Origin: Polytrichum commune
Taxonomy: Eukaryota; Streptophyta; Polytrichopsida; Polytrichales; Polytrichaceae
Assembly: GCA_950295325.1 (NCBI GenBank)
Contig: OX485808.1
Coordinates: 10,482,501 to 10,546,500 of the forward strand
Reading direction: 5' to 3'
Length of the DNA: 64,000 bases
A program made the translations under genes and the position numbers. The notes beneath the pieces were generated by a model. The model did not search any database. It was not told the origin of the DNA and saw nothing but the letters and a program-made list of their open reading frames with translations. The stretch's first letter is position 1. The number at the start of each line of letters is the position of its first letter. Shown here in pieces: positions 653 through 64,000 of the stretch.

Positions 653-660
653 CTGCAAGT

Positions 661-2520: not shown

Positions 2521-2529
2521 CAGGTGGGT

Positions 2530-3400: not shown

Positions 3401-3412
3401 ATATGGAAGCCA

Positions 3413-6689: not shown

Positions 6690-6883
6690 CCACCCTCATG
6701 CACACAATGGGGATGTGCATAGACGGATCCTGAATAAACTGTTGTGCGCTCCATCTTTTTGGAACCCATCGATATAATATTCATACAACAAATTGTTGAG
6801 TATTTTCTGGATATCGAAATTGATAAGGTTTCTGTGTTTTTCTATTGGACCCTATAGCTTTTGTCAATTCTTTACAAGGTTCC

Positions 6884-13871: not shown

Positions 13872-13884
13872 GTCTAGTACCTAG

Positions 13885-28080: not shown

Positions 28081-28097
28081 GCCCCTGGGCACTAGTT

Positions 28098-29330
28098 AAC
28101 ACTGCGTTCGGTGAGGCGACCGGTTGAAATAAGATTTCGCCGAAGTTTCGGAACATAGAGCACATTCTTGAGCTTAATAGTGGAGACTTCTCCATTGACA
28201 AGAGTATGAACGTATATATCTCCAATGCCGCGTACATATAGGAGGTGATTATCAGCAATAGTGACACTCCAGGAGTGGTCATCAATTGCTTGAAATTTTT
28301 TGAACCACCGAAGTTTATCGGTCATATGTTCCGTTGCTCCAGAGTCTGCGAACCATGCAGCATCGTCTGCAGTAGTATTGAGTTGAACACAATAGGCCTC
28401 ACTTGACGCCGATGAGTATGAAGCAGATGAATCTTGAGCAGGTGCGCTGGCAGTAAGATTGGCATGACTGCGTTTACCCTTGTGGTGATGATGTTTACGG
28501 GATCCCGAACTCTTGTGCGGAGCGACCATTCGTTTAGGAGAAACAGGTGAGGAGCTGTCAGAATCTTCAGGGCAATCTTTCCCGAAATGGCCACGATGAC
28601 CACACCGGTAGCACCTCGCATGTTTCTTATACTTCGCGTGTCGATCTGCTCTCTCCTTCTTCTGTTCGACAGAGGGAGAAGGTTTCGTATGAGCCGGATT
28701 TGTCTTTGTAAAATACGCCTTGTCGTTAGGTGTATCAAGAAATGTGCCTCGCTCACGGAGTTTACTCTGAAATTTGATGAGTCTTGTCTGGAACCCGAGT
28801 AGGGTTTGTTTGGCGAGAGGGACACTCTCCCACGCAAGAAGAAGAGGATCAAAGGAAGAAGGTAGTCCACATTTGATCTTACTGATAAGTTGTTGTTCGG
28901 TGATGGTTTGCTTCAATTCGGTAAGCTGTTTGGCCAATCGCTGAAGAGTGCTGATGAAGGTAGCGATAGATTCACCATCTCCGAGCTTACAGCTGTAGTA
29001 CTTTTCCTGTAACGCAATAATGCATTCATCAGAATGCTGGTCGTGGTAAGCTTGAAGCTGGCTCCATATTTCATGGGATGTTGAGCAATTGATAACTTCT
29101 TCCTTGTGGAAGGAATCAATTGTCGCGAGAATAGCAACAATGGCCTGCTTGTCATGTTTCTCCCAGAGTAACTGTTCGGCAGGATCTGTGATATCAGACT
29201 TCTTAAGAGAACCATTGACGATAGAGAATAATTCTCGGGACTGAAAAATAAATCTCATGTGCATCTTCCATAGTTGGAAGTTGGTACCATTGTAAATGTC
29301 TACAGCGTTAGCTTCCCGGATTTCTGACAT
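28098..29330 (-). pseudogene. Copia gag and protease, cut by the CACTA insertion
   Basis: Starts at the ATG at 29330 (a frame open from 29360 has no earlier ATG). It has the Copia gag region (NGTNFQLWKMHMRFIF; DSFHKEEVINCSTSHEIW), a basic segment, a CCHC zinc knuckle (CYRCGHRGHFGKDC) and an aspartic protease active site (WFADSGATEHMTD). The frame runs into the CACTA element right after LTERSV and meets a stop inside it. Downstream coding resumes at 13871. No other lesion was seen, so this part was intact when the CACTA element inserted. Confidence 0.93.
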
Positions 29331-29456
29331 GGTGCTTGATGGTTCCTCTTGGATAGACACACTGATCCTCAGAACCCAATCAATTCTATGCTATTGCTTT
29401 CGGGACTTACTTTACCTCTAAAACATTCCCTAGTTTCCGCATCTTGAGCGTGAAAT

Positions 29457-31697: not shown

Positions 31698-34600
31698 CTA
31701 CACTACTTCGGCAGCCAGAACAGAAAGAGGGATCCTCACAACGTGGCCCCTGTCTCCTGTCCAAGCCATAGACCCAAATGTGAACTCCCCATTGCTCTGC
31801 GTCGCCTTCAGAGTGACGGTAATGCAGATAGATTCCCCTGGCTTAACCTTGAATGACTCAGGATGCACTCGAACAAAGACTCCAGAAGGCGAGGTCACCG
31901 AAACAACGTATTTCTCACGAGCTAAACCCACACTCGTCACCGTCCTCTTCACCGTCCTAGTCCCTACCAGATTCGCCACTGTGATGGAGGGCATGTTGAG
32001 GTCGGATGACCGGGCTCCCATAATGGGATTGCATGTTGCACCTGTGGAGTCCTGCACTGTGTTTGCATCCACGCCTGGAAGAGTGCACAGAAAGTTGACA
32101 TAGTCTTGGAATTCTGCCAACCCACCAGAACATGAATGAGCATTGTGGGTTTGGTCGTGACTGTGTTGCAAGAGAAGGATAATTAATGGCAATCCTTTTC
32201 ATTCCTTTGATGCTATCACATTCATTAACTAAGTAGGACTCAACTGATGTCACCATTCATATGCACCAAGCTGGAATAATGAACTAAGACACTACATGCT
32301 CAACCAAGGTAAAGCTGTTTGAATTTGATAGGATCTAAGGAATAAATCATCGAGGGTTAATACCTGATAACTCCAGGAACTCATAAACTGATTCAAATTC
32401 AACGGTCAGCTAGCTGATAACTCTGAGTCCCTTCTCACTATCATCTCCTTGCCCTGGTTTGCTTTACCAAAGTGGTGTTACAACTTCCCTACACTTGGCT
32501 ATTGGTAGTAGGTCTACAATAGTCAAGTGGTTCGCATTGGCTTTGGTCTTTAGGTATGTCTGTAATGGCTTCCACAAACTCTTAGTTGATGCTCACCTAT
32601 CCGTGGCAATTTCAGAAGCTTTCTGTGAGACAAGAAGTATGTGTTCACCTCTTTCAAAGACGAGCCCTGGATCTAAGGCGGCGGTGGCATTGACTGCTCC
32701 ACAGCCGACGTCAAATGGTGATGCCGACCCCGACGGCGACGACGATGGATTCGCCGACGGCTGCTCGGCGAGAATTGGATTGTTCCAAAAGTCGATGTTG
32801 CTTGCAGTGGTGAGAAGTGCCGAGTGGATGGCGGAAGGGCTCCAAGTTGGGTTCCTCTGTTTGATGAGGGCGACGATGCCGGCGATGTGCGGTGTCGCCA
32901 TGCTCGTCCCGGATATCAGTGCAAATTTCTCCCCTGCGAAGTCAGTCAGTCACAAAAAATATCAAATTTTGCAAAATCAAATTCAAGGTGCGTGTGCAAA
33001 TTACACACAAACCATAGTTGTAGTTTACTTTCTTTGGTTCTTTTTCTGAGGGACAAGGAGGGAAAAGGTGCATTGATGACACCCACAACCTCAACTACTC
33101 TTTCTTGCCCGACTAAGGTATGTGGGTGTTATTCGGGTTTTTTTCATGGTGTCCAACTTCTACCGGATAGATTTACACAACGAAACTTGTGTTGCATTAG
33201 CAAATTTATAATGAAGCATCAGCAAAAAATTGAATTGAAAATCAATACTCCCATGGTTTAGTTATCATCATCAGAAGTGCATGTTTGTTGATTCCTTAAC
33301 TGAATACATAAGTCCTCCCAACTATGTTCACTATTGAGTGTGAAGTAGTCAATTTTGAAAATGTAGTCAATAAAATATGAAGACGTAGTCCAATCTCTTT
33401 CAAACAAGAGTGTTTATGGTGTTTTTTCTTTGATCCTCACCGAGGCACACACCAATCAAATATAGGTCTCCATATCAAAAGAGTAACCGAATAACACCCG
33501 CATACCTTACGAAACGAGGTGTATGGTTACGATGGTTGTAGTTACTTTCTCTGGTTCTATTTTGCTTGTAGTTACTATTGGAAGAGAACTTCTAAGCCAA
33601 AGCATGAGAGAGGATCTGTAGGAGGCAGTTACTCTTAGAGAAACTTTCACTAGAATCAATAAAATGCTTGTCTCCACTCCACAGATTGCACCAATAAGAA
33701 GGACAATCATTGAGGTCAAATCCATTATTGAACTACAAGAGTAATTTGTGTGGAAACGAACAAAATCGTAGTTGTGGTTGAAGATGGGCCTAAACCACTA
33801 TATACGTACCAGTGAAGCCTGCGACGTCAATTGCAGAGGGCGACCAAGCGCCCCACACCTCGTTCCCGGGCGCCATCAAGTCGGGTTTCAACAGATCCGC
33901 CACCACGGACGTGATGGTGTTGGCAAATACAGGGCCTCTCGAAGAGAACGCGGCGACTTGCGGGGCTTCGACCTTGAGCAATGCCTGTCGGGAGTCAGTT
34001 AGCCTGACACGCGCTTTCGATTGGAGGATGGTCCCATCACTGTCTCTCTTCAACCTCGAATTGTAGTAATCAAGCAGCTCCTGCAATTATCATCAGAGAA
34101 TAGATCATACTTGTAAACATTGGTGGCGGCAATTTAATATTTCTCACCCAATTCAGATACTTCAGAAATTAGCTGAGATACAGTAGACAACTAATTCTTC
34201 TTGTTTGAGTATCCAGAACAACAATTTCCAGATCGTAACAAGTGACACGTCCTACTAGTCCTACATGCCTCAGTTTTTGTGTTTTTTGTTCGTTTCTATA
34301 CATCCAAGGTCAAGATTAAGCAAAATTATGGAACTTATGGGAAAGAGGCAACGGTACGATCACTGGACACTGGCGGAGTCAGAGTCAGGGATGGAGAAAT
34401 TAGATGCAGTAGACAACAAAAGCTTCTTACTTGGGTACTCAGAACAACAATTTCCAGATTCACAAGTGACACGCCATAGAAACATGCCTTTGTTATGTTT
34501 TCTGTTTGGCATTTCTATACATCCAAAGACAAGATAATGCAAAAGAATGGAACTTATATGGAAAGAGGCAAGGTTGTGATCACTGTACAGTGGCGGAGTC

Positions 34601-37600
34601 AGAATCAGGGATGAAGACGGTGGGAAGAAAGTATGGAACAGGGTCCATGGTGACCCGCTGCAGCTTCAAGCTCAACAAAGAAGCCTTGTTCAGCACGATG
34701 AGCCCCGAGGCATTCAAGCTGGAAGCGACCTCGACTGCTTTCTGGAATTCGGAGGCTGCTCCACCACCAGAGTACTCCACAAAGTTGCACACGAGGATCT
34801 TATTGCGGACCAGAGTGACATTAAAGGGTGCCGCATTCTGGCAGTAAGAGAAGAATTCGGCATCCAAGCCCAAGGTGTCATTGCTGAAAGCGTCTTCCGC
34901 GTAAATAAGATGATGCCAAGTTGAGGGGCTGGTCCCGGCTGCAAGGGAAAATTTAGAGGATTTTGCTTTAATGGCTGGAGGTGGTCGTGGAAGAAGGATG
35001 AAGAAGACCCTCCCTTTCTTTGTGTACGTACGTACTTTTGATGATTTGATATGAGGAATTTTGTGGTAATAATCAATAGCTTTTTCCAGAAGGACGTACC
35101 TGAAAATCCAGTTCCGATGTACTGATCACCGTTCCTTGCTACAACAACATCCTCATAAGCCCGGTCGCTCAAACCAGCAGCCACGGAGATCAACCAAGGG
35201 CCATAAGAATTCATTGTTGATGGGTAAGGTCCTGAATTTCCAGCTGCATGGACCACCACAACACCAGCCGAGACAGCAAACAGGAGAGCCACATCGAAGG
35301 CGTTGAGGCACGGCACCCCAGTGGCACTGTTGATGGAGCCAAGGGAGATACTGAGAACATCCACATTGTCGTGGACTGCCTGCAAGCAATTTTTAGCTGC
35401 CAATTAGTGCTTTACGAGGAATAATTCACAAGTCTTATACAAATCGGTACCATGTGAGTAGGGAGAATTGGGAGGCCCGCAATGCCAGCCCGAAATGATA
35501 AGAGATGGTGTACCCTCATCAAATGACATTGCATGCTATCCAGCGAGTATTGCACAATTCTTATCCGACCTGGGTTCAGGGCAATTTCACTACAAAGAAA
35601 CTGTACTACAGAGTCATTTTGTTCTGAAGGCAATTTAAAAGTGGGCTAGCTGCTGTATCATTTTTAATCAGGTAGAAATACCTTTCTGTTTGGGCATTTG
35701 TAGAATTGGTGCATTCTGAATCCAGAATCACATATCGATTTTCAATGTTAGATGCTCTGAGCATATCTAGTGCAGATTGTGACGACTGCGATCATCGCCT
35801 TGTGAATCAATGATCCAAATGTGATATTATAGTAAGATGTTTATCCCACTCCTCAAAATACTGCAATCGTTAGCTTCTACTGCTACAAGAATCTGGGAAA
35901 TGGAAAGTAGAGTTTCTCATTGAATTGAGAGGCAAGTTGTTATGTACCTGATCCAGACCAGCCAGCACGTCAGAGAGGAAGCCGCCATCCCGGAAGATAA
36001 CTTTGTATACCGCTATCCTGACACATATTGACAGGTCATGGTGAGTTGAGTTCAACATGCCCATTCGAAATACTACAATGTCATGAATCTTTGCTGTTAG
36101 ATGCAACATATCTTGAAATTTTGGAAGTGCCGCTAATCACATAGGACACGTTTCAAAGGCCCATATGACTTAGTGCAGCAACTCCAATCGCCTGGACCAA
36201 AATTTGTCACCAAGGAAAAACAGAATACAAATATTTGAAACAACAAGTAAACTCGTGGCTTTGTTGTGAATGAAAACCTACCGAGCACGAGGAGCAACGC
36301 CACTGGCTGTGCCATAATTGTAGCCTTTCACCATCACAGGCACTCCCTTGCTCCCAGCTGCTATTGAGCTTGTGTGTCTGTAAGGCACCCATGGTAATAA
36401 ACATGCACACCCACAGGTCTCTGAGTCAGGTATGGCGTATGTAACTTACCTGAAATGCACACAACATCAATAGTTTAAGTCAATTGATGCATAGAGAGCT
36501 CAGCTTGCTTCATCGCTGTCAAGACTTTGGAAGTTGCATAGTGTACGTGAAAACCTGTATATAACAGAGTTATCCTCAAAGTCTCTCAAAACTCATGTTT
36601 TGGTAGGGAGTTTCGCCCCACTTTTGAAATTCTATAATGTTTGAGGAGCATTCAAGTGATGTGAGAACCCCCAATTTTGGAGGAATAAGCAGAGGCATTT
36701 GACTCTGACCAAGAGACGCTTGTATAAAAATGAAACTCCTTGTCAAACTTTCGAGAGCACCAATTTAGGGGCCTTGAAAAGTTTAGAATGAAATCCATGA
36801 AATCCATTTTGATATTGCTGTCTTTTGGACAAAGTCAAACCCCTCCCGTTCATTTCACCAGAATTGGAGGTTCCAACACCACTTGAACACTTCTTAAACA
36901 TTTGAAATTGTCAAGAGTGGGGTGAAACTCCCTACCAAAACATGAGATTTTGAGAGACTTTAAGGACAACTCTAATAACCTAAACACTTTCTTCGAGTAC
37001 TAAGTGGCTCTGCTATTCACTCTCCTCAATTCTTTCAGTTCTTAATGGGTTTGCATTCCCGTGAACCAAATCCCCGGTGTAGATTTGTGCAGTGCATAGG
37101 TTTTTGCACTTCAATCCCGGCATGAATTACAGAAATGAAAGACCTAAAATTGGTTTTGAGTCCTGATGAACCAAGTTCCATTGGCTGAAAGAAATGGGAA
37201 CTGACGTGCCGTGTCCGTCTCCGTCCATGGGTGAGGCGAAATCGTAAGTCTCATTGAAGAGCTCTGCAGCGATGATTCCTCTTGCAAAATGCTTGGCTCC
37301 GACCACTTTCCCATTACATGAGCCATTGGGGAATGTCTCCTCGTCGACCTCGCAGCTCCCTTTCCACTTGCTCAAGGGACCGTAGGGTTTGCTCCACAAC
37401 CCTTTGTCGCTGAAGCTCTCATGTGTGGGGTCGATCCCAGTGTCCAGCATGCCAATCACCATCCCCTCTCCCGCATTCGCTGGACCTCCCAGAACCGGCC
37501 AGGCTCCATTTGGCAGGTTCAAAAAGTCCGGTGTATGTGTTGTTGTTTTCTGGAGCAATTTGTCAAGCTCGACAGAGACAACTTGCGGATGCTCTTGGAG

Positions 37601-38891
37601 GAGCTTTGCCTGCAGGAAGGAGAGAATACAATAACAATTTTCGCAGGAGACTAATCAAGAACCTCACAGGAACTGCGGAACAAAATATTGCAACTTGATG
37701 ATCTTGACAGGAATCGTTCTAGTGGTGTCCAGGCTCGAAGTCGTCCCGAGCAAAGTGCTTTCTGACCAATTTTAAGGCCAATTTTTTTCCAATGCACAAT
37801 TAAAAGTGTTGGAAACAAAGGACATGAGGACAGAAGGGCAACACCTGGTCTATAGCGGAAGTTAGCTTCACAGAGAAAGCGTTGAGGACCATGGTGTAGC
37901 TGTAAAGCTTCTCAAAAGTGCCCCTCTCCAACACGTCTTCCAGGACAGTATCGTGTCCACCCTTCAAGAACTCCGCATATTGTTTGGCCGCTTGGCTATG
38001 ATCACATCATGCACCACAACCAAAGATCAACTTGGGTCATACACACAGAGGGTTAAGCAGACCCATTTACCCTATAATACATTATATGCAGGAAATTCTT
38101 CTCGACCCTTCTCGACTCTGTTATAATGCCCTCGCCGAACCATAGATCTTCTGGAACTTGTGTTGCAATATTTGATGCTTCACGAATAAATGCAATGAAG
38201 GGAGCAATGTGGGCTTAACATTCTAGGAGGCGAGGGATTTCAAGAAGGCAGGGCATAAGGGAGGGCCTTTAAAAATCAGGTTTGGCTATCCCATCATGTA
38301 CCACAACAAAATATCAACTTTGGCCGTATATAAACAGGGTTAAGCAGAAAAATCAACCCTACAATGCATTCTATGCAGGAAATATTTCTCGATTCTGATA
38401 TTACAACACCCTCGCCGAGCCACAGCACTCCTGGAACTTGTAGTGCAACATATGATGTTTAACAAGTGAGTACAAATAGGGCAGCCATGTGGGCTAACAT
38501 TCTAGGAAGCGAGGGATTTATAAAAGGCAGAGCATAGGGGAAGACCTTGAGAAATCAGGCAACATATAATGCTTCATAAATGAATGCAAATTGGGCAATG
38601 TGGCTCAACATTCAAGGATTTCAAAAAGCAGAGCAAGGGGCCAGACCTTGAGAAATCAGGTTTCTCGGTGCGTGACGCTGCAGCGATGGCAGCAAATGGC
38701 AAGTCCAGGGAGCCTTTGAAGGCAGATACAGGGGGGCCCTTCACACGCACCACATACACTGCTGATCGCGGCCCGGCCATCGCCATAGCCAGTGTGAAAT
38801 GGGTCATCAGCATGAGCAAGCACATGGGGAGCAAAGTATATGACCCTAATTTCAGCCTCTTTGCAGGGAAGGTCCCCATCAGAATTGACAT
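31698..38891 (-). CDS. Subtilisin-like serine protease (SBT2-type subtilase), ten exons
   Basis: Exons (minus strand): 38891-38647, 37995-37845, 37609-37206, 36377-36282, 36017-35948, 35379-35100, 34938-34589, 34080-33810, 32933-32649 and 32113-31698. All phases match, giving 855 aa. It has a signal peptide (hydrophobic about 18-38), an inhibitor I9 propeptide (YTMVLNAFSVKLT), catalytic D188 (MLDTGID), H265 (DGHGTHTSS), oxyanion N370 (HAAGNSG) and S633 (SGTSMATPH), a PA-like insertion at about 416-533, and a C-terminal Fn3-like domain (TRTVKRTVTSVG). The RIAVYKVIFRDGGF and DVLAGLDQAVHDNVDVLSIS blocks resemble plant SBT2 subtilases. A secreted wall or apoplastic protease is expected. Met5 (38879) is an alternative start. 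Introns carry several small inverted-repeat elements. Confidence 0.93.
33115..33508. mobile_element. Small inverted-repeat element in a subtilase intron
   Basis: AAGGTATGTGGGTGTTATTC at 33115 is inverted at 33485-33508 with one change. Size about 394 bp, with no coding capacity. It lies in the intron between the exons at 34080-33810 and 32933-32649. Target duplication not resolved. Confidence 0.5.
34180..34610. repeat. Tandem duplication including a copy of an exon end (subtilase)
   Basis: About 220 bp around 34180-34400 repeats at about 34400-34610. Both contain the segment reading PDSDSA-VQ on the minus strand, the 3' end of the exon at 34938-34589, plus its donor region. The gene therefore has a decoy exon end in its intron. 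Confidence 0.7.
36567..36972. mobile_element. Approximately 406-bp TIR element in a subtilase intron
   Basis: Ends GAGTTATCCTCAAAGTCTCT and its inverted counterpart are about 50 bp long with few changes. Interior non-coding. Family not assigned. Confidence 0.65.
38030..38650. repeat. Imperfect tandem copies of an exon-intron junction (subtilase)
   Basis: Three imperfect copies of a segment with ACATTCTAGGA..GCGAGGGATTT and GACCTTGAGAAATCAGG lie in intron 1. The last overlaps the true 3' end of exon 1 at 38647. Confidence 0.6.
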
Positions 38892-52270: not shown

Positions 52271-52274
52271 ACAT

Positions 52275-52705
52275 TGTCACGTGAGGTGACATCGGGGGCT
52301 AAGTTACGTCAATTTAGGAGTAAATGGACTCCATTAGGAGTCCATGTGTGTTGGGATGAGTAACGGACTCCATTGGGAGTCCTAGTTAGTTGTTCATCCA
52401 CTCCATGGATGAACTCCACATAGGATTGGGGTTGTATGGAGAGGAAGGCCACTTGACTTGCCATTGTTGTCAAGTCAAGTCTTGTGAGTGTGTTTTGAGA
52501 GAGAGAGAGCTTGTTGTTGCTTTCTCATGGCTATGGTGTAGTAGATTATGAGTAAAGCCTTTGCATTCTTTCTCCACCACTTGCACTCTTGGATTCTCCC
52601 TTCGTGGAGTGAGAGATAGCTTGACTCTTGTGTGTGAATTTCAGAGTTTCTTAAGCTTTGTAAGAAGACATTTTAGTTTCTTAAGCTTGGAGAGAGAAAC
52701 CCTCA
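52275..52705 (+). repeat. 5' LTR of the gypsy element
   Basis: Starts TGTCACGTGAGGTGACA (itself an inverted repeat) and matches 62179-62613 to ...ACCCTCA. It contains hairpin-prone motifs (GGACTCCATTAGGAGTCC, GGACTCCATTGGGAGTCC) and a short GA run that differs in length between copies. The true LTR could extend further, because the 3' copy is truncated. Confidence 0.85.
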
Positions 52706-53154
52706 TACTTGACAACAATGGCTCAAATTTTTCATTTTTGGTTGTATTTCTGAGCTAGAATGGCCCAGTAATGAGAGCAAATGAGTGATACAAGTGTTTG
52801 AAAGCTTAGTTTGTCATTTCTTGCAACCCTCAAGAAGATTTTGAGAGAAATCTTCCCATTTTTCTTTTGTTGTCTCTTTGTATTTTCTTCAATTGTTGAT
52901 GGTTGAATGTTGAGATTCCATTTAGTCTCAAGATTCTCAAGTCACATTTTCTTGCTTGCAAATTGTGAAAGCAAAGTTTAATTCAAACACAAACACAAAC
53001 CAAAATTAAAATCCAATTTGTTTTTAATTTTGGTTGAGCTCCGGACGGATCCGGAGCTCACCGGACCCTCTTGGAGCTCCAATTCTGGGAGGACCGGGGG
53101 CGGGCGGGCGCCAGCCAGGCCCTGGCAGGCAGGTAAGGTAAGCCCTTACCCTTT

Positions 53155-53586
53155 TATTTTATTTTATTTTGTTTTTGTTTATTTTTGTTTTTGTTTTTGT
53201 TTTGTTTTTTGTTTTGTTTAATTAAAACAAATTTTTTTCACATTTTTACTTTCACCTTTCAAACTTGGCATCCAATTCTCACAAACTTTGAGGTTCAAAT
53301 TTGGGGGCATACTAGCTCCGATTGGAGTGAAATTTGAGCCTATCTTGTGTGAAATTTGCCAAGGAATCCAATGGTGTAATTGGATTGTTGATTGGAATTC
53401 AAAATCATTGCTGAAATTATTAATTTCAACGCTGATTTTTGTTTTTGGGAGCAAATTAACTCCGAACGGAGTGAAATTTGAGCCTAATTTGTGTGAAATA
53501 TTCCTAGGAGTCCATTGGTGCACTTAGTTTGTTGATTGGAGTCCATAATCACCTTGGAAATGAGCCTTTTCAACGCTGATTTTTCA
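53155..53586. repeat. Leader of the gypsy element: T-rich tract and tandem duplication
   Basis: A TTTTG/TTTTA-rich low-complexity tract (53155-53222) is followed by two tandem ~140-bp units (53303-53438 and 53444-53586). These share GGAGTGAAATTTGAGCCTA and TTTCAACGCTGATTTTT. Confidence 0.8.
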
Positions 53587-53739
53587 TTTTAATTACCAAT
53601 CTCAAACCTTTGCACAATTTTGGAATTTTGGGGGCATAAACACTTGGCATTTGGCAAGGGATTGCCATTTAGATAGCCCGCAACAGGTGCAGGTTGCCAT
53701 TACCTTGTAGATAGTTGCAGGTACTCAAGTGATTATTTT

Positions 53740-54870
53740 ATGGTGCAAACTAGGAGCCGATATTATCGATCTCCATCACCAGATTACTTGGAGGACGTGC
53801 ATACCACAAATCTTGAGCCAGAGGTAGATACCAACGAGGCTTTTGAGCCTATTTCGGCATTGGACACTACTAGTAGGCTTCGGATTTGGAGTGTCGGCAC
53901 GTTCGACGAAATGGAGGACGATCGCCACAATTCAGTGCGTGATCGGTTTTCAGGTCGAGGTGGGGGCATTTCCTTGCCCGATTGGAAACTCCGGTTTCGT
54001 ACCTGGATTAAGGAGAAACGCCAAAGGTCTTCCAATTTCAATGATTGGTATGCCTTTGAACTTCTGCCTCAACATTTGGAGTATGAGGCACTCCAAACTT
54101 ATGAACGCTGGACAGAGGGTCATCAGCGACAACTTCGGGAGGTGGAGCAGTATTGGGAGGCTCGGGTTGAGCTCATTTCAGCCCTTAAGGATGGGGCGGT
54201 TGCTACCTTAGCTCCACCCACCTTAAAGGAGGAGGAATCGCCGGCGGAGTCTAAAGACACGGAACTGGCACTTGGGCCAATGGTGGCTAGCAGTAGCACG
54301 GAAACCCTTTCACGGGTGGCACATGCTACACAGGCAGCATTGACGGCTGTTGGTCCACCACCTCCGTTTAATCCCCTTACTGAATTTGTCGCACATTTGG
54401 AAGTGGAGTATGGTGGGTTTCGGCGAGACCAGATGCAGCGCATCCAGGATTTCCGCCGAAAGAAGGATGATACTCCACGGATCATGTATACGCAACTCGC
54501 GCGATTTGCTGTGGAGTCGGGAGGTGTTTTTGCTGAGAGTCAGCTTGTTAAAATCTTTTTGTCTAAGATTGACAAGCGGCTACTTGAGTTGGCATCACCT
54601 CGGATTATCCTCGACTACGAGGGCCGAGCTACACTTGCACAAGCGTTTGCCGTGGTTGAGAGATGTGATCGGGCTCTTTGCCAACATGATGCCACGGATA
54701 TGGTATCTTGGATGACAGAGAGTCCGAAACCAAGAAGAATTGTCACAACTACTAGTAGTTTAGCTAAGACTCAACCCGTCAAGGAGCAAAAGATTTTGCA
54801 TTGTTGGGGTTGTGGAGAAGCTGGTCATTCTAAGAATGATCCCAATTGTCCTAAGAAGAAGAAAACTTAG
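53740..54870 (+). CDS. Gypsy gag polyprotein with CCHC zinc knuckle
   Basis: 376 aa from the ATG at 53740 to a TAG at 54868-54870. It contains a retrotransposon gag-like region (WKLRFRTWIKEKRQRS ... RDQMQRIQDFRRKKDDTP ... VKIFLSKIDKRLLELA), then a C-terminal CCHC knuckle (CWGCGEAGHSKNDPNC) and a Lys-rich end. It should form the nucleocapsid and bind element RNA. The TAG is followed in frame by the protease-methyltransferase block, beginning with codons for PLGKLK. Whether this stop is read through or is a mutation cannot be told; its context (CCT) is not the classic leaky hexamer. Confidence 0.88.
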   Translation: MVQTRSRYYRSPSPDYLEDVHTTNLEPEVDTNEAFEPISALDTTSRLRIWSVGTFDEMEDDRHNSVRDRFSGRGGGISLPDWKLRFRTWIKEKRQRSSNFNDWYAFELLPQHLEYEALQTYERWTEGHQRQLREVEQYWEARVELISALKDGAVATLAPPTLKEEESPAESKDTELALGPMVASSSTETLSRVAHATQAALTAVGPPPPFNPLTEFVAHLEVEYGGFRRDQMQRIQDFRRKKDDTPRIMYTQLARFAVESGGVFAESQLVKIFLSKIDKRLLELASPRIILDYEGRATLAQAFAVVERCDRALCQHDATDMVSWMTESPKPRRIVTTTSSLAKTQPVKEQKILHCWGCGEAGHSKNDPNCPKKKKT

Positions 54871-57837
54871 CCTTTGGGAAAATTAAAACAAAAGATGGAA
54901 CCAGTAAAGGTAGGGGACAATTCTAAGAAGAGACAATTGAAATGTAACCATTGTAGTGGCACTAATCACGATGTGGATCATTGTTTCCAACTTCATCTTG
55001 AGATGCGGCCTGCCAGTTATGTCACTGGAAAGTCTCCAAGGGAGCAGAGTCTTGAGGCTAAGGTGGCAGAGCTTGAGCAAAAACTCAAATCTTCTGCATC
55101 TTTTGCTCAAATTTCTGAGCCGCATGTAGGTGGTGGCACCTCGGGTTCGGACATGTATATGTTTGGAGCAGCTGGAGAGGTGGTGGCGGCGGCTTCTACT
55201 CGCTCACAAACATTGGCAGATACGGTGGCTTCCACGAGTGGTGGTAGCAACGAGGTGCTACATCCTCGCCATGCCGGACCAGCTGATCAAATTGGTCAAG
55301 CACGTTTACCTCTTTCATTTGGATTGGTAGACACCACTGTTGTTGGGGCTAAAAACCCTGTACCTTTGAGAGATGGGGATTCCATCTCGAAGGATGTTAC
55401 GCAGACATTGGCATATAAAATTCTCCATATGCCAATTTTCTCGGGTTCGGAGTTTATGGCTTCGGATTTCAAGCCTGCTGCAGTTTTTCATTTAGTTGGG
55501 AGAATGTTAGAAGGTAAGGCGGATTTGCCATCCCTTCAAGTATCCCAAGCTGTGGTTGACGTACCTATGGCTGAGGAGGTAGAGGACTTAGCCAATTTGC
55601 GAGCGAGTCTTGCGGATGCGGCGATCATTGCTTTTGGTAAGCAAACTGATATTCCTCCAGCATCAATTTCAGCAGTGGATACGTTGTTTGCGAATTATGC
55701 GTCCGGAGCGGCATATCTTGCAGACATTTCTGCAAGGCCTGCTCGCGAACGGCATAATTTGCAACCTGGAGTTGTACGGCTGATGAACGACAAATCTTTG
55801 TTTGTCGTTTCACGCACGGATATGCCCACTATCCGTGTTACACCACTGAGAGTTATGATGGATTCCGGTGCTCAACCGGTTATGATTGGCAAAGGATTTG
55901 CTGACAGTCTTGGATTGACGCCAGCAAGCTTGGATCCTTGTCCATTCACTATTGTGACTTCAGTAAGGGGCATTGAACGTGCAACAGGTTACACCAAGGC
56001 ACCTCTACGTTTGATTTTTCATGTGGGGGCAGGGCCTACTTACACTCATTTGTCAATGAAGTGTGTTGTTACTAATGCTACCAACTATGATATACTTGTT
56101 GGTCAGCAAGCTCTTTACCCACTTGGCTTTGGTTTGGATAATTGGACGGAAGAGGCATGGATTAGACCGGGATGGTCCACTGGAGATGGCAGGAAGGTAT
56201 TTATTCCCGTCACATTTGCAGCCACTGCTATGACTATGGTTGCGGAGGCAATGTTTGGTTGCAGCGGTTTAGTTGCAGATTTGCCTTGTGCTCCAGTTTT
56301 ATTGGAGGAAACAATGGACTACACTTGTAATGCGGCAGAACAACAATTTTTACCATCTTTTCAAATTCCTGCTCGACATTTCAAGGATCCACCTCCACCA
56401 TGGCGAACTCCTAAGGAGTTATCCGACCATTGTCGACACATTGTAGCGGATTTGGAGCTTGGAGAGGCACCTCCAACTTTATCCTCATTTTCTTTTGCTC
56501 AACCCATTCGTTGGCAACCATCACCTGAAGGTATTGTCCTTGTGGAGATCTTTGGAGGCATTGGCACAGGTTTGGCGGCAGTGTTGGAAGCTGGAATTAC
56601 AGTTTGGCGATATATTCATGTGGACAATGGGTATGCAGCCAACAGAGCCGTCCGACACCACATCCAACAATTGTTGTTGAGATACCCCGCACAATTGTCA
56701 GCCTTTGTCATTCATGGATGTTGTGGTCAACTTCCTCAAGATGTCACTATGATTAGTGATGAGGATTTGAGAAGGTTGGGCCACGTGGATTTGATTCTTG
56801 CAGGATGGCCTTGTCAAAGCCATTCGCGGGCAGGAACTGGCCAGGGATTGGATGATCCTAGGTCTAGTTTGTTTGCGGATTTGACGCGATTGACGCAATG
56901 GTGGTTTACCCACCAATCAATTCCGCCAGGGTACATTTTTGAAAATGTACCATTATTGGGTGATACCCGGCACAAAGTGGTGAAGGATGGTGAGTACATT
57001 AACCAAATTCTGGGTACTCCAACATTTCTGGATGCTGCATCTTTGGGATCCTTTGCTCATCGGCCTCGTTGGTTTTGGACCAACTTGGTATCACCTCGGG
57101 TGCTTTCAGCGGCGATTGCCCGCATTCCCCGCCTTATGGATCGCAAGGTGGATGACATTTTAGATGATCATCGTGTTTCCTTGGCAGTTACCAAGGGCGA
57201 CACCTTGCCATTTGCATTCATTAACAAGGTGGGAATTCTGAGAGGTGCACTACCTACTTTTGTGACATATCCACAGTCTTTTGCATTTCGATCTCGTGGA
57301 CCTGACATAGTTTGGGATTCAAAATCCCAAACTTATGAGGAGCCTACGGCAGATGAGCGGGAACGCGCCATGGGTTTTCTTACAGGTACCACGGCTGTTC
57401 ACGGGCTTCAGGAAGGTCAGAGACGTTTCCTATTGGGGCAAGCTATGGATCTTAATAGCATTGTGTGGATAATTGGAATTTGTCTTGCTGCTCAACAACG
57501 TATGGATGACCAATTGCTTACTCTGAGGGCAGAGAACAATGGTCAGGGGGCAATGGAGCCGCAATCCAAGGATCACATTGAGGTCAATGACACCGAGGGA
57601 TTATTTCCTTTGAAACTTCATGTTGCGGAAGAGCTTCGAGCCCAACGTGTTTTTTCGGCTTTGGCCCAAGAGTTTGGGAAGTTGGAGGCCCATAAAATGT
57701 TTCCACTTCTATTTCTTGGTGATACTTCATATGTGGGTAGCTATTTAGCTACACAAACTGATTGTAGTGGAGATGATACGCATTTGGATTCAAGTGCAGA
57801 TGATGGGGGCAAAGGTGGTGCCCTCTCCACGGACTAG
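54871..57837 (+). CDS. Gypsy protease plus DNMT3-like cytosine-5 methyltransferase
   Basis: In frame with gag; no ATG at its start, so probably translated as a continuation. It opens with a second zinc knuckle (CNHCSGTNHDVDHC) and a coiled-coil-like EAKVAELEQKLK, then an aspartic protease with MMDSGAQPVMIG (DSG at 55861). Residues encoded at about 56531-57490 form a complete C5 methyltransferase: motif I FGGIGTG (56551), motif IV GWPCQSHSRAG with catalytic Cys (56812), motif VI FENV (56938), motif VIII AHRPRWFW, motif IX ADERERAMGF and motif X FLLGQAMDLNS. The AAxLGSFAHRPRWFWTNL and FENVPLLGDTRHKVV blocks resemble DNMT3/DRM rather than DNMT1 enzymes. It could methylate element or host DNA. 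All core catalytic motifs look intact. Confidence 0.9.
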   Translation, partial: PLGKLKQKMEPVKVGDNSKKRQLKCNHCSGTNHDVDHCFQLHLEMRPASYVTGKSPREQSLEAKVAELEQKLKSSASFAQISEPHVGGGTSGSDMYMFGAAGEVVAAASTRSQTLADTVASTSGGSNEVLHPRHAGPADQIGQARLPLSFGLVDTTVVGAKNPVPLRDGDSISKDVTQTLAYKILHMPIFSGSEFMASDFKPAAVFHLVGRMLEGKADLPSLQVSQAVVDVPMAEEVEDLANLRASLADAAIIAFGKQTDIPPASISAVDTLFANYASGAAYLADISARPARERHNLQPGVVRLMNDKSLFVVSRTDMPTIRVTPLRVMMDSGAQPVMIGKGFADSLGLTPASLDPCPFTIVTSVRGIERATGYTKAPLRLIFHVGAGPTYTHLSMKCVVTNATNYDILVGQQALYPLGFGLDNWTEEAWIRPGWSTGDGRKVFIPVTFAATAMTMVAEAMFGCSGLVADLPCAPVLLEETMDYTCNAAEQQFLPSFQIPARHFKDPPPPWRTPKELSDHCRHIVADLELGEAPPTLSSFSFAQPIRWQPSPEGIVLVEIFGGIGTGLAAVLEAGITVWRYIHVDNGYAANRAVRHHIQQLLLRYPAQLSAFVIHGCCGQLPQDVTMISDEDLRRLGHVDLILAGWPCQSHSRAGTGQGLDDPRSSLFADLTRLTQWWFTHQSIPPGYIFENVPLLGDTRHKVVKDGEYINQILGTPTFLDAASLGSFAHRPRWFWTNLVSPRVLSAAIARIPRLMDRKVDDILDDHRVSLAVTKGDTLPFAFINKVGILRGALPTFVTYPQSFAFRSRGPDIVWDSKSQTYEEPTADERERAMGFLTGTTAVHGLQEGQRRFLLGQAMDLNSIVWIIGICLAAQQRMDDQLLTLRAENNGQGAMEPQSKDHIEVNDTEGLFPLKLHVAEELRAQRVFSALAQEFGKLEAHKMFPLLFLGDTSYVGSYLATQTDCSGDDTHLDSSADDGGKGGALSTD

Positions 57838-57843
57838 CAATTA
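57835..57843 (+). promoter_or_regulatory. Candidate programmed stop-codon readthrough site (TAG CAA TTA)
   Basis: The methyltransferase frame ends in TAG followed by CAATTA and stays in frame with the RT block. Stop-CAR-YYA is the known type I leaky context, first described for the tobamovirus replicase stop. Here it would set the ratio of the upstream product to the full polyprotein. Function is inferred from the hexamer and the frame. Confidence 0.6.
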
Positions 57844-59298
57844 CAGGCTGTGCTGGCACCAAGTGGCAATCCTTCTATGAAGAAGGAAACTACGGAGTTT
57901 GACGATTGGCCAATTGAAGTGGGGCCAAAGCTTACTGGTGCCGAAACACGAAAGGTACGGGCATTTATTCGCTCTTACCGTAATTGTTTTGCCTTTAGTC
58001 TTCATGATCTTGAAGGATATGAAGGTAAACCTGTTCGTATTCAACTCGAGGACGACCACCCTATTTTCAGACGGCCGTACAGACTTAGTACCTCTGAAAG
58101 GTTAGGTGTTCAAACTCGATGTCAAGAGTTATTGGCAGCGGAATTGATTGAACTCTCCAATGGAGAGTATGCTTGTGCCACGGTTATGCCGTTAAAGAAT
58201 GATATCTTTGGCAACTGGACGGAAAAACGGATGTGTGGTGATTATCGTCCAGTCAACCGCAAGACCAAGTCGGATCGATATCCAATGCCGATGCCGGAGG
58301 AGTTGTTTGATGCACTGGGATTTTCTAGAATCTTCAACACTCTGGATTTGAGGTCTGGTTATTACCAATTACCTTTGTTGTTGGGTGATCGGGTGAAGAC
58401 CGCATTTTGGGGAATTGATAAAGATGGTAAGGATCAACTTTATCATTGGGAATTTCTGCCATTTGGTCCCAAGAATGCACCAGTTGAATTTCAACGGGTG
58501 ATGGACCAATTATTGGCTGGTTTGCCGTTTGCTAGATGTTACATTAATGATGTTATCATCTTTAGTAATAGTCCACAGGATCATGTGAGACATTTGCAAG
58601 CGGTATTTGAACGACTTCAACGGTGGGGACTCCGTTTACATCATGGAAAATGTAAGTTTTTCCATGATCAATTGGCCTATTTAGGCCACATGATTGTTCC
58701 TAGCGGTCTTGGTGTGCAACATGCGAAGGTGGATGCTTTGCACAAAATTCCCGCACCTAGTGATGTACCACGGCTTCGTGCATTTCTAGGATTGGCAAAT
58801 TATTATAGGACGTTTGTCAAAAACTTTAGTTTGATTGCCAAACCTCTTACCATTTTCACGGGAAAAGACCAACCATGGATTTGGAGTCGGGAACAACAAC
58901 AGGCATTTGATACATTGAAGCAGAGGCTCGGTTCAGCGCCAGTGCTTCGACGCCCGGATGTGTCTAGAGCTTTTCAATTGCACACGGATTGGAGTGCAGT
59001 GGGATTGGGAGCGGTATTGACACAGAAAGATGAAGAGGGAAATGAATATGTGGTGGCTTATGCATCTAGAAGCAATAATAGTACTGAATCTAATTATTCT
59101 TCTTATGAAGGCGAGGCCTTGGCGGCCGTTTGGGCCATTGCACATTTTCGACCTTATTTGTATGGGCAAAAGTTTACTTTGGTGACTGATCATCAGCCTT
59201 TAAAATGGCTTATGGAATCAGATAAGCTCACCGGGAAACTTGCTAGGTGGGCATTGTTACTTCAGGAATATGATTTTGAAGTTGTTCACCGAGCATGA
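57838..59298 (+). pseudogene. Gypsy reverse transcriptase and RNase H, inactivated
   Basis: Same frame as the upstream blocks. RT motifs: KRMCGDYRPVNRKTK, FNTLDLRSGYYQLPL, FLPFGPKNAPVEFQRVMD and the catalytic box reading YINDVIIFS. Ty3/gypsy RTs have YIDD; here the first Asp codon is AAT (58546-58548), which should abolish polymerase activity. RNase H follows (LHTDWSAVGLGAVL; YSSYEGEALAAVWAI; TDHQPLKWLM). The block ends at TGA (59296-59298), where the family normally reads H-RA-G-ANLDADGLSR; the frame continues with IANLDADGLSRNP, so this is a nonsense mutation. Confidence 0.9.
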
Positions 59299-61745
59299 AT
59301 TGCCAACTTGGATGCAGACGGATTGTCTCGCAATCCAAGTCCTTCAGATGAGGATTTAACTAGAGCCAGGTGACATGGAGATTGTGATCGTGAGGCAGTG
59401 CCGGGTTGGCATGCTGTCACATATCTCACAATGATTTCGGGATTGGCTGTTGAGATCTTTGTAGAAGAACAAGATGAGGAGGTTGATAAATCTCTCGTTG
59501 TTAGTGATGTGTGGGAAGACCAGGCGGTCTTGCACAAACTTCAACAAGGGATATTTCCTCTTGGACTATCTGCTATGGAGCGAGATAGAGTTAGTCACCG
59601 GATAACAAGGTTTCGTTGGGCAAACAACTTGTTATTTCGTGTGTGGCCGAACGGAACGAGGCGCATCGTTCCAAGGCCAGATCAAAGAGCTTCTTTGGTG
59701 CGGCAAGTGCACGAGGAGCTTGGACATTTTGGAGTGCGAAGGACGCACTCTATGTTGCGTAACCAATATTGGTGGACTGGTATGTATCAACAGGTTGCCA
59801 CTTATGTTTCTCGGTGTGAAGTATGTGACCGGGTCAGGTCAAGTTTTAATACTTTGTCACCTCAACTTCAGCCTTTACCTATTATGGGCTTGGGATATCG
59901 TTGGTCTTTGGATTTTGCCGGACCGCTTACTATCACTCCACGTGGTTCCAAGTATGTGCTTGTGATGGTGGAGCATTTTAGTAAGTGGATTGAACTCGTG
60001 GCTCTTCCCCAAAATTCCTCAGAATTGGCGGCTATGGCATTTCTTGATCGAGTTTTGGCACGATTTGGAGCACCTGCAGAGGTGTTGACGGATCAAGGAA
60101 GAGAATTCCTTGGATCTTTCGAGGCTTTGTGTACCAAGGCTTTTATTGATCATCGGACAACTTCCAGAGATCACCCTGAGGCAGATGGCTTAGCTGAACG
60201 AGTTGTTCAGACGGTTAAGCGCGGTTTGCGGAAGTATGGATTGCTTCATGGCAACCATCGCGATTGGGACTTGATGTTACCATGGATATCAATGGGTTAT
60301 CGTTTCAGCAGGCAAGCATCTTTGGCATCCTATAGTCCTTGGGGCCATTCACGATCAGGGTACTACTTTCAGGACAAAGGACTTAAGGACTTTGTCGCAT
60401 TGATCTTGGTTTTTATCATGATTTACTATTATTTGATCAATAAATTTTACATAAATAAGTAGATAGTTCATAACATTTATCAAGAAAGATTTTTATTATT
60501 ATTTAATAATCACCCTACACCCTAAACCCTAAACCCTAGGCCACATCAATGGCATTTTTTTGCTATTTAGGTGTGCATTGGTGGTCAATTATTTCCTGTT
60601 ATGTATCTTGGTACCTTGGTAAAAGTGTCATGTGTCCATTCATATAAATTTTTTTGTCCAATTCTAATACTAGGCGTTCCTTTTACGTGTGGCCGTGAGT
60701 ATATGTATGTTTGGACATGTTTGGTGCCACATGTAAAGTTGGGCAATTGCTATTCAACACATATTTGGTTCTATTGGTATACACTTGAACGATGAGTGTG
60801 AGGAAAAAATTTGGGATCATTTCGATTGATTCTTGTTGTCCTTTTCATTCCTTGATCCTAAGGTGAACAATTAAGACAACACTCCTGAATGTCCTTTAAG
60901 GAATCAAAAGGATATCTTAGATGACCCTATTCCTTCTAAATTAACTTTGTCAGTGTACTCGATATGGAGTATGAAATGTAAGTATGATCCAAAATATTCT
61001 TCACAATACAAATCTAAGCATACCAAGCATGTGAAGTTATCCAAAAAAGTCCGTTTTCCGTTAGACGGCCAAAAGTAGTATCCTAACCGTGAATGGCCCC
61101 CCTTACCAACTCTTGTATGGACGGGAACCAATTTTACCTAGCTCGGTGCGAGAGAAATTGGCTCCCGTGGTAAACTTGGATGATCCAGATGTTTGGGCTC
61201 AATGTCTTCATGACCGAGCAACGTTCTTCCAAAAGGCCATGCCTATGGCTATGGAGAACTTAAATATTGCTCAACATCGTGATACATTACGGTATGTCCG
61301 GATCCGCAGTGGAGCTTATCGACCTCAGGTTCGTAGATTTTCCAAGGGGGATTATGTTTACTTGCAACAGGAGGCGCCTACGACATTGGATATCAAGGTT
61401 GGGCGCACGATTTTGCGAGTAAAAGATGTCTTGCCAAGTGGTATATTATTGCTTGAAGGCAAGGATGGACGGGAATGTCGTGAGCATTCAAAGAATTGTG
61501 CTCCATGTCACCTTCCCATCGACGGCTCTGTGCATCCCGAGTTGGCGGTTGTACCACAGGGTCTGCCTTGTTATGTTTGTGGAGAGAAGAAAGGAGCTGC
61601 AACAATGTTATTGTGCGACTAATGTCAACGTGGATGGCACATGGTATGTTTGACACCTTCATTTTTTACTCTTCCTTCTGGCAATTGGGTTTGTCCTCGT
61701 TGTCGGAAAGCCTCTCATTCCGTGGCCGTTAATGGTCATGATTGA
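59299..61745 (+). pseudogene. Gypsy integrase with C-terminal PHD finger, interrupted
   Basis: Continues in frame after the TGA and a second TGA (59371-59373, at a usual Trp). Integrase parts: zinc domain (HEELGHFGVRRTHSML ... CEVCDRV), core with LDFAGPL, TDQGREFLGSF and an Asp/Glu region (HPEADGLAERVVQTVKRGL). A TIR element (60341-61100) plus duplication splits ASYSP from YQLLYGREPILPSSV; the frame is otherwise kept. After 61105 the protein goes on to a basic domain (RRFSKGDYVYLQQ) and a PHD finger: CYVCGEKKGA, LLCD, a TAA (61620-61622) at a variable PHD position, CQRGWHMVC, then WVCPRC, with a final stop at 61743. PHD fingers read histone H3 tails, so this could guide integration. Confidence 0.88.
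60341..61100. mobile_element. 760-bp TIR element inserted in the gypsy integrase
   Basis: Termini GGGGCCATTCACG are inverted at 61088-61100, with similarity continuing inward to GTACTAC/ATACTAC. The target duplication is CCTT (60337-60340 and 61101-61104), or CTT if the right end is one base longer. Removing the element and one duplication restores the integrase frame exactly. It contains a short ACCCTAAACCCTAAACCC run (60511-60538). The small frames inside are not credible genes. Superfamily not assigned; a 3-bp duplication would suggest PIF/Harbinger or CACTA. Confidence 0.88.
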
Positions 61746-62070
61746 GAATTTTGTGGATGTTTACCACATGTTTTAGTGGTGAAGTTGTTATTTAGTTGGT
61801 TGGAAATTTTATGGAATTAAGACCACATTGAAAGAGTTATCCAAGAATTCAACATTAATTGTTGAAGGCGATTAAGGATGGGGCTCACATTGCACCCAGC
61901 CTACAGTTCTTGGATTACTTTGTCAATCACGAGTTTAATTCCTTCGATTACTACTACCCAATTAAATATGTATAGATGTAGCAACAACTTCATCATGTTC
62001 AACAACTCTACCGATGAGTGTATTTGTTCCTAGTCGATTGGAGGGGCTCCTTATCTGCTAATGGGGGCAT

Positions 62071-62720
62071 TTGAAGAGGTGGTTGTTTAGCATTTTAGTT
62101 TGCTATTTTATTTTGCTAATTGATGTTGACAACGACACTCAATCTGTTGTGTTTAACGATCTTAGTTTACACGACAGCTGTCACGTGAGGTGACATCGGG
62201 GGCTAAGTTACGTCAATTTAGGAGTAAATGGACTCCATTAGGAGTCCATGTGTGTTGGGATGAGTAACGGACTCCATTGGGAGTCCTAGTTAGTTGTTCA
62301 TCCACTCCATGGATGAACTCCACATAGGATTGGGGTTGTATGGAGAGGAAGGCCACTTGACTTGCCATTGTTGTCAAGTCAAGTCTTGTGAGTGTGTTTT
62401 GAGAGAGAGAGAGAGAGCTTGTTGTTGTTTTCTCATGGCTATGGTGTAGTAGATTATGAGTAAAGCCTTTGCATTCTTTCTCCACCACTTGCACTCTTGG
62501 ATTCTCCCTTCGTGGAGTGAGAGATAGCTTGACTCTTGTGTGTGAATTTCAGAGTTTCTTAAGCTTTGTAAGAAGACATTTTAGTTTCTTAAGCTTGGAG
62601 AGAGAAACCCTCATCTTGAAGAGGTGGTTGTTTAGCATTTTAGTTTGCTATTTTATTTTGCTAATTGATGTTGACAACGACACTCGATCTGTTGTGTTTA
62701 ACGATCTTAGTTTACACAAC
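62071..62720. repeat. Rearranged 3' end of the gypsy element (internal segment on both sides of the LTR)
   Basis: A ~105-bp segment beginning TTGAAGAGGTGGTTG occurs at 62071-62174, directly before the 3' LTR, and again at 62616-62720, directly after the truncated LTR, with two or three changes. It is absent near the 5' LTR. Confidence 0.85.
62179..62613 (+). repeat. 3' LTR of the gypsy element (truncated)
   Basis: Nearly identical to 52275-52705. It differs mainly by a longer GA run and a T/C change, and ends abruptly at the second copy of the internal segment. Confidence 0.88.
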
Positions 62721-64000
62721 AACATGTATGTTACTTTTCTATAGAGGTGCCTTCCCTAGGACATGAAAAAAATGGCATCATGTCTTACAATGAGAGTAGA
62801 TTATGATATGCTCCTACTATATTAGACAACGATTCTAAATTTGACGATTAACCCAATTGGAAGTATGGTCTATGTGATCAACTAAACAAATTCTGGTGCA
62901 TGTTTTCAGGCATTTCCGTGCAACACTCACCACTCGCACGACACAATCTAACCCTAACCCTAAAACAAATTGGTGACGTGGCCGCCTGAGAGGGCAACAT
63001 TTCGGGAAGAGGCTATAAGCCTCCTCCTGGAAGAGAAAAAATAAATCTTTATTTTGATCTTTGACTTATAACTTATGCATCTCACCTCATATTGTGAATC
63101 ATGCAATCTTTGTGATTCATTGCAATTGGTAACACTCGAATAAGACAATTCCGGATCCATTCCGTGAGCCAAGACTCCATGTGCACTTGGAATTGTCCAC
63201 AATAGTGCCACATACTATAACTTACTCCGCATTCTTACATTTTGTTTTCTTTACAAATACATAAAAGAAAGCTGTTTATCACCGGCTACCGGTGGCTGTC
63301 CAAACGAAGACTGGACGTGCCGGTAACCGGCCGCAGCCGACCTCAGTCATTAAGATGCGCTCTCGTCCTGTCTCTTGTTCGACGGCTGGAGAATCGTGGC
63401 CGAAACTCTGTTATATTTGCATCTTTAAGTCTCCTCGTAGCCTCCTTCGATCCGCTCAATCACTCCACTGATGCGACAGTATAACAATCTATTCTACAAG
63501 TCAGCCTGGGTTCAAGGCTGCTAAGTTACCTTGAAGCCTTCGTAAGTTACGTAGCATGTGCTTATGTTGATACTTGATCTGCAGAGTCGACTGAGTTAGA
63601 ACGTAAACTTCATTAGTTGAGCCTGTTGCAAGAATAGCCGAAAGATTGGGAGCTAGGGAGCGGTTTATGAGTTTGAAGGAAGTGCAGAGCTTCTCTTAGG
63701 TTATCTGAACACTGCTGTGAAGTCCTCTACACAATCGGGTGGCATTATAGGGCTTCATCATCCTGCAGCTCAAGGTTTGAGAAAATATATCTGTCACTCT
63801 ATTCCCCCCTTCGGAGTTTCTTTACATTGTGTACCCATTTTTGTAGGATGTCTTGTAATATACTTTTCAACTTCATTGGAGGTGTCTGTAGCTGAAATGG
63901 GGATTCAAATGTACCTCCAAATTTACCAGCTTTCGACCTCGGTCAGCATTTCATCCTTAAAGATTTGAGAGAATCTGTCTAAACTCCGTTCCTTCTTCGG
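62721..64000. other. No supported gene; telomere-like motif at 62949
   Basis: TAACCCTAACCCTAAA lies at about 62949-62965. A GC-rich stretch at 63275-63345 contains inverted CCGGTAACCGG-type motifs. Open frames are short and unrecognised. The window may end inside a promoter or a further transposon. Confidence 0.4.

Follow-up and report, generated by a model that had tools for sequence, protein, structure and literature searches.

Why should a retrotransposon in a moss encode a cytosine methyltransferase, and what would such an enzyme do for it? The question is raised by a 64,000-nucleotide stretch of Polytrichum commune DNA (contig OX485808.1, positions 10,482,501 to 10,546,500; hereafter the window), in which a Ty3/gypsy-type retroelement spans positions 52275-62721. 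Between protease and reverse transcriptase (RT), this element encodes a cytosine methyltransferase (MT) that resembles DNMT3. A retroelement-borne DNMT3 is of a kind already known from KnitGypsy-Dnmt3 of Klebsormidium nitens (de Mendoza et al. 2018), which combines gypsy domains with DIRS-structure repeats (PMC5890265). An earlier note, made from the letters of the window alone, had proposed that a gypsy element comparable to the Klebsormidium one encodes a DNMT3-like enzyme, here in a land-plant-type genome, and both Pfam and the match to DNMT3A bear this out. Our preferred reading, to which we give slightly more belief than doubt, is that the window holds a broken young copy of a streptophyte gypsy-type family that captured a DNMT3-type MT long ago, kept it as an enzyme of its own and uses it to methylate its own complementary DNA (cDNA).

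The MT lies in an open reading frame (ORF) at 54871-57837 (988 codons, stop to stop). Pfam detected the C-5 cytosine methylase domain PF00145 there (E 4.6e-11, 43 bits against a cut-off of 22), and what we take to be motifs I (FGG), IV (PCQ), VI (EN), VIII (RxR) and X follow one another in that order, as first read; the domain itself was correctly recognised, and its bounds of 56531-57490 required correction to 56515-57510. Because the motifs stand in normal order, the MT is not a rearranged DRM, and membership of that group was rejected. Among solved structures the best match was DNMT3A, both for the single sequence (2.9e-6) and for a profile of eight sequences (E 2e-21); the profile matched DNMT2 (3e-9), HaeIII (1e-8) and, over part of its length, DRM2 (2e-8) more weakly. 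Unrearranged motifs and greatest proximity to DNMT3, which one sequence represents in our trees, indicate that the MT is probably of DNMT3 type. An AlphaFold2 model built from 24 sequences reached a pLDDT of 78.6 and a pTM of 0.83, and its poorly modelled residues 231-272 are provisionally taken for part of the target-recognition region.

Other carriers of an MT between protease and RT, on whose existence the earlier note had staked its proposal, do exist. Three protein searches returned 32, 60 and 152 matches, at least 170 distinct proteins, with the family rows drawn from the matches listed (in the third search, the best 120 of 152). Chance is excluded, since all 32 matches of the first search had E values of 7.4e-69 or better; one protein piece, P0010, matches 64% of the query region at 96% identity. 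Named hosts are the liverworts Marchantia polymorpha, Marchantia paleacea, Riccia sorocarpa and Calypogeia fissa, the peat mosses Sphagnum fallax, S. troendelagicum and S. tenellum, and the alga Closterium sp. (NIES-53 and NIES-54); one homologue labelled Spirochaetia is probably mis-binned. The name Klebsormidium was absent among the matches listed (the first and second searches and the best 120 of 152 in the third), and a search of viral contigs with the window MT gave no relative. We annotated 172 rows (170 proteins, the window and an intact relative, L012), keeping 15 outgroups apart. The protease stands directly before the MT in 50 rows and the order is RNase H-MT-integrase in 17, with 84 MT-only pieces, 3 rows with protease only and 18 other fragments or orders. 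All queries contained the MT, and the first also the protease; the presence of an MT is thus mostly by construction, that of its neighbours in the second and third searches not. As the same arrangement occurs in liverworts, peat mosses and an alga, such elements appear to have retained the MT for a long time.

The intact relative came from a search with a profile (A2, not to be confused with repeat A2 below) that hit 11 loci in viral_contigs and 8 in genome_contigs. L012 (CADCWO010000201.1, 9285 bp) was the only family member found among these 19, and the ORFs of the others were used just for their MTs. Its Gag-Pro-MT frame is open in the two pieces of the record (3-3491 and 8582-9283), as is its RT-RNase H-integrase-PHD frame of 1047 codons. 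The first and last 127 bases of the record are identical, as either a true circle or a collapsed multicopy element would show. L012 is filed under a Synechococcales (cyanobacterial) metagenome-assembled genome, a probable contamination of the reference genome set; we infer that it is mis-binned plant or algal DNA.

To follow the history of the MT within the family, we built separate MT and RT trees from the same 25 elements with enough of both domains. Both trees split the 8 elements with the MT before RT from the 17 with the MT after RNase H (support 97/95 for MT, 88/86 for RT), and both recover a group of five elements and the pairs window-L012, P0035-P0039, P0055-P0056, P0057-P0058 and P0060-P0067. 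Other inner branches differ or are weak, with P0052-P0068 in the MT tree only and P0045-P0047 in the RT tree only. Because the trees agree in their main split and recurring groups, MT and RT have mainly descended together. A further tree held 32 family MTs, DNMT3A and, as outgroups, 15 MTs from prokaryote genomes and viral contigs, taken from the other 18 profile loci (L007, L008 and L010 were left out); DNMT3A was the one DNMT3 included, and the sequences were drawn from outside plant host DNMT3, DRM and Klebsormidium. Family MTs and DNMT3A came together (100/99), the family MTs formed one group (82/95), and within it the 17 MT-after-RNaseH sequences formed one group (83/80), with the MT-before-RT elements as several unresolved branches at the family base. 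Such a pattern is what a single relocation of the MT, from ahead of RT into the interval between RNase H and integrase, would give; two captures from closely related sources would also account for it.

Between the window and L012 the MT domains are 68% identical in amino acids, with pN 0.200 and pS 0.743 (Nei-Gojobori); synonymous sites are saturated, and dN/dS values are to be read as bounds only. Identity is 44% in the stretch before the MT and 42% in the tail after it, compared with 70% for protease, 82% for RT, 90% for RNase H, 86% for integrase and 91% for the integrase end with its PHD finger. We hold the MT to be under purifying selection, as far as such comparison indicates.

The position of the MT relative to the stop codons bears on how much of it would be made. 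The MT belongs to the Gag-Pro ORF. The stop that closes this first ORF after the MT reads TAG CAA TTA in the window; its L012 counterpart reads TAG CAA TCA. RT follows in the same frame in each case, and both DNAs (2/2) agree with the type I readthrough motif of tobamoviruses, UAG-CAR-YYA (PMC3542737). Across the window and L012, in all frames and on both strands, CARYYA follows 6 of 1763 TAG triplets, and two of those six are the ORF1 stops. Of the 40 proteins that have protease and MT and lack RT, RNase H and integrase, 27 stop 54 to 141 residues beyond the MT, consistent with an ORF that closes here, and many of them have similar last residues. For the remaining 13 the distance from the MT match to the protein end is at most one residue (nine), 12 to 24 residues (three) or 475 residues (one), and some of the 40 ends may be contig or gene-model ends. 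Since the MT lies before a UAG of readthrough type, it is expected at Gag level, in excess of RT and integrase; judged from the stop and its context, it should be made in that amount.

Beyond this stop, Pfam detected RVT_1, RNase H, integrase H2C2 and rve in the ORFs that follow, giving the Ty3/gypsy order of RT-RNase H and then integrase; the retroviral-type protease match in the ORF at 54871-57837 was weak (E 0.005, below cut-off). Protease, MT and RT share a frame, as had been noted at first, because 53740-60340 is a single reading frame, interrupted by four stops. The best match of L012 ORF2 in the PDB was Ty3 (E 4e-100), and no tyrosine recombinase match at E 0.1 or better appeared in the two L012 ORFs. 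DIRS/Ngaro membership, which would make this a tyrosine-recombinase retrotransposon, was rejected in view of the rve-type DDE integrase.

The integrase appears to end in a chromatin-reader-type domain, a PHD finger. PF00628 matched the whole finger in L012 (E 4.3e-10) and, in the window, its second half (E 1.4e-4; 22.3 bits, where the cut-off is 24), with no Pfam match to PF00628 for the first half. The nearest relatives of the L012 finger are the PHDs of CHD4, PHF12, UHRF1 and KDM5, several of which recognise H3 tails that lack methylation at K4, a state found in silent chromatin. A number of relatives (among them P0045, P0067 and P0072) carry a further C-terminal domain after the PHD finger. 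It had no Pfam match in P0045 and P0067, and the P0072 stretches DPWCGSGSTR and VASPWFALLDLA recall a second, adenine-type methyltransferase.

Matching long terminal repeats (LTRs) had been read at the flanks of the element; we found instead split repeats in the layout A1...B1-A2-B2, with A about 440 and B 106 bases long, read from one integrated copy. A1 and A2 differ at six of 442 columns (five gap columns and one substitution). No copy of B was found at A1, where there were only short chance-level matches. The outer ends read TG...CA (start of A1, end of B2) and are flanked on both sides by ACAT, at four bases a modest sign. The B1/A2 joint, GACAGC-TGTCAC, is identical in the window and L012. 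Split direct repeats of this layout are those of Ngaro and PAT elements. With B on both sides of A2 and no copy at A1, a plain-LTR reading was set behind that of split repeats, and we call the element gypsy-type, not a plain gypsy member, because two plain LTRs were not found in the one integrated copy. For the repeats only, we consider it possible, if rather doubtful, that this is a classical LTR element (LTR = B+A) whose ends became rearranged during or after insertion, perhaps through a two-LTR circle. A purine-rich tract does precede B1, a single integrated copy was read, and L012, where B and A adjoin once, is compatible with either reading; the borders, however, are exact, with their four-base duplication and TG...CA ends, and KnitGypsy-Dnmt3 was described with the same combination of DIRS-structure repeats and gypsy domains (PMC5890265).

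The copy in the window is broken but young. Stops lie at 54868 (gag/protease), at 59296 and 59371 (RNase H/integrase) and at 61620 (PHD finger), the catalytic YxDD box of RT carries Asn, and a 760-bp insert interrupts the integrase. The damage to RT had been recognised from the start; the copy as a whole is more broken than was then stated. The suggestion that its MT could still be expressed did not hold, since the stop at 54868 parts Gag from protease-MT and translation of Gag-Pro-MT ends before the MT. That stop is a defect, because it lacks the readthrough context CARYYA and is absent in the relatives seen across the site. Some of the damage may predate the present insertion, in which case the copy would have been mobilised by the enzymes of others. 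The insert has CCTT on either side and telomere-like CCCTAAA repeats inside, and looks like a small non-autonomous DNA transposon.

Under the reading we prefer, Gag, protease and MT would be translated as one polyprotein, and a minority of ribosomes would pass the UAG into RT-RNase H-integrase-PHD. The protease would free the MT within the particle, where it would be present at Gag level and would methylate de novo the double-stranded cDNA of the element, linear or circular, before or at integration. The new copy would arrive pre-marked like the silent repeats of the host, evading attack on foreign unmethylated DNA, and the PHD finger of the integrase would steer insertion to matching chromatin. 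Production at Gag level would strengthen the idea, because many MT molecules would enter the particle where cDNA forms, and silent chromatin would be indicated both by a writer acting on cDNA and by an integrase-borne reader. We regard methylation of the element's own cDNA as an evenly balanced proposition for the role of the MT. More tentative is the fuller picture of an epigenetic writer-reader lineage, with a Gag-level DNMT3 before a readthrough stop, partly circular cDNA methylated in the particle, a DDE integrase with a chromatin-reading PHD, split repeats, one MT move within pol and co-descent of MT and RT.

Several observations count against this account. The window copy is unable to make its MT as part of Gag-Pro, the readthrough context is known from two DNAs, and the MT evolves faster than RT and integrase (68% versus 82-91% identity to L012). 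At least one of the seven core residues is lost in 15 of 89 rows. Taken as a whole, the element has a CpG observed/expected ratio of 0.65, little different from the 0.58 of the sequence before it and the 0.73 of that after it; the 440 bases of repeat A1 on their own give low values (CpG 0.25, CHG 0.07), which could be a methylation trace or small-number noise. KnitGypsy-Dnmt3 gave no methylation in yeast, a negative that its authors judged inconclusive because DNMT3B also failed there; non-DNMT retrotransposons move in the same genomes, and methylation is therefore dispensable for retrotransposition; and KnitGypsy copies bear CHH and CHG methylation like silenced transposons, which plain host silencing fits equally (PMC5890265).

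The MT might instead act on the host genome in trans or damp the element: by spreading or restoring CG methylation at related copies it would reduce the damage to the host, which would in turn spare the element. Slowed retrotransposition that helps the host was an option named by the discoverers of KnitGypsy-Dnmt3 (PMC5890265), and purifying selection on the MT would suit it; we nevertheless find it unlikely, as a selfish element would be selected more directly for what its MT does to its own cDNA, and a place in the Gag-Pro ORF would point to the particle. Co-production with Gag would bring the MT to RNA in the particle, such as genomic RNA or a tRNA primer, and an RNA substrate was proposed for the enzyme of a dinoflagellate LINE (long interspersed nuclear element; PMC5890265). 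The sequence is nevertheless DNMT3-type, with the far weaker match to DNMT2, and RNA modification seems improbable. We think no better of the idea that the fold is retained as a non-catalytic nucleic-acid-binding or structural domain: the lost core residues and the faster evolution relative to RT speak for it, whereas of the 169 family rows 89 are ungapped at these positions, 74 of those retain all seven residues, and the catalytic Cys column is invariant in a 13-row MT alignment. Least credible of all is that a host DNMT gene was inserted recently, or that the MT is a useless passenger; the ruined state of the window copy speaks for this and nothing else does. The shared main split of the MT and RT trees (25 elements), the 50 rows with protease before MT and purifying selection on the MT all oppose it, and host-gene insertion, which the earlier note had itself named as fatal to its proposal, was rejected.

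How, then, does this element compare with known systems? Chromoviruses are Ty3/gypsy elements with an integrase chromodomain; the window element likewise has a chromatin-reader domain at its integrase C-terminus, with a PHD finger instead. It shares the split-repeat layout with Ngaro, PAT and DIRS elements, which carry a tyrosine recombinase where it has a DDE integrase. Like KnitGypsy-Dnmt3, it has a Dnmt3-type MT in a gypsy coding region, without introns and under purifying selection, and DIRS-like repeats with gypsy domains, the latter found in one window copy; unlike it, the MT sits in the Gag-Pro ORF before the UAG, the paper placing that of KnitGypsy-Dnmt3 in a Pol polyprotein ORF (PMC5890265). 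The land-plant-type host and the PHD finger on the integrase also set it apart, in a comparison by description only. SymbioDIRS-Dnmt3 of dinoflagellates is likewise a retroelement-borne Dnmt3 and methylates CG de novo in yeast; it belongs to the DIRS class, the charophyte capture was treated as independent, and cDNA methylation was proposed for the dinoflagellate DIRS elements (PMC5890265). Among the sources consulted, retroelement DNMT3s are treated only in that paper and in one sentence of PMC12344493; no report of a bryophyte retroelement DNMT3 was found in the open-licence literature, a scope outside which most subscription papers fall. As far as that literature shows, the bryophyte spread, the MT before a readthrough-type stop and the PHD integrase in the same element are new, as is the alternative domain order, in which the MT follows RNase H and precedes integrase, together with its matching trees.

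Cytosine methylation is the mark by which plants silence transposons, and an element that keeps the writer of this mark inverts the picture. The 2018 report was limited to an alga and dinoflagellates; relatives now occur in Marchantia, with its genetics and methylomes, and what a retroelement gains from a DNMT thereby becomes testable, with Gag-level placement of the MT and the PHD integrase supplying a concrete mechanism to test. Some Marchantia and Sphagnum gene models are probably transposon genes: Mp_4g09160, Mp_8g17980, Mp_2g26090 and Mp_7g09570, and P0086 and P0103 of Sphagnum troendelagicum, resemble pieces of the MT-bearing family, and Mp_8g17980, P0086 and P0103 carry the database name DNA (cytosine-5)-methyltransferase.

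Table 1. Features of the retroelement, in window coordinates.
Feature	Position	Strand	Evidence or remark
Probable target-site duplication, left, ACAT	52271..52274	.	Matches 62722-62725; 4 bases, modest evidence
Repeat A1, left element end, starts TGTCACG	52275..52714	+	Identical to A2 at 436/442 columns
gag with CCHC zinc knuckle, closed by nonsense TAG 54868-54870	53740..54867	+	TAG absent from relatives covering the site (e.g. P0001, L012)
Aspartic protease region, DSGAQP	55726..56220	+	Sequence, Pfam, annotated rows
DNMT3-like C5-cytosine methyltransferase domain	56515..57510	+	Pfam, alignment, trees, model
End of Gag-Pro-MT ORF, TAG CAA TTA	57835..57843	+	Matches type I readthrough UAG-CAR-YYA; L012 TAG CAA TCA at same place
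Ty3/gypsy RT and RNase H, catalytic box YIND	57838..59298	+	ORF reading, Pfam
Integrase: H2C2 zinc domain and DDE core	59374..60340	+	Pfam, comparison with L012
760-bp insert inside integrase, inverted ends GGGGCCATTCACG	60341..61100	.	Foreign to element; small DNA transposon by look
Integrase C-terminus and PHD finger, interrupted by TAA 61620-61622	61101..61745	+	87% identity to L012 across 209 aa
Repeat B1, directly after purine-rich tract GGGGGCATT	62071..62176	+	Identical to B2 at 104/106
Repeat A2	62179..62619	+	Near-identical to A1
Repeat B2, right element end	62616..62721	+	Near-identical to B1
Probable target-site duplication, right, ACAT	62722..62725	.	Matches left copy

Elsewhere in the window, long tandem arrays built on the palindrome TTTGGGTCGAGCGACCCAAA occupy 5890-6695 and 1073-1446. 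On the minus strand, fragments of a subtilisin-like protease gene lie at 31698-37654, separated by introns or insertions; in them Pfam placed fn3_6, a plant-typical domain, above its cut-off and peptidase S8 below. Together with the named hosts of related elements, fn3_6 indicates that the window comes from an embryophyte. Judged by eye from their ORFs, 11286-13880 and 28092-29390 contain copia-type polyprotein remains, and 6827-9969 and 16593-19530 other transposon remains with DNA-transposon-like ORFs.

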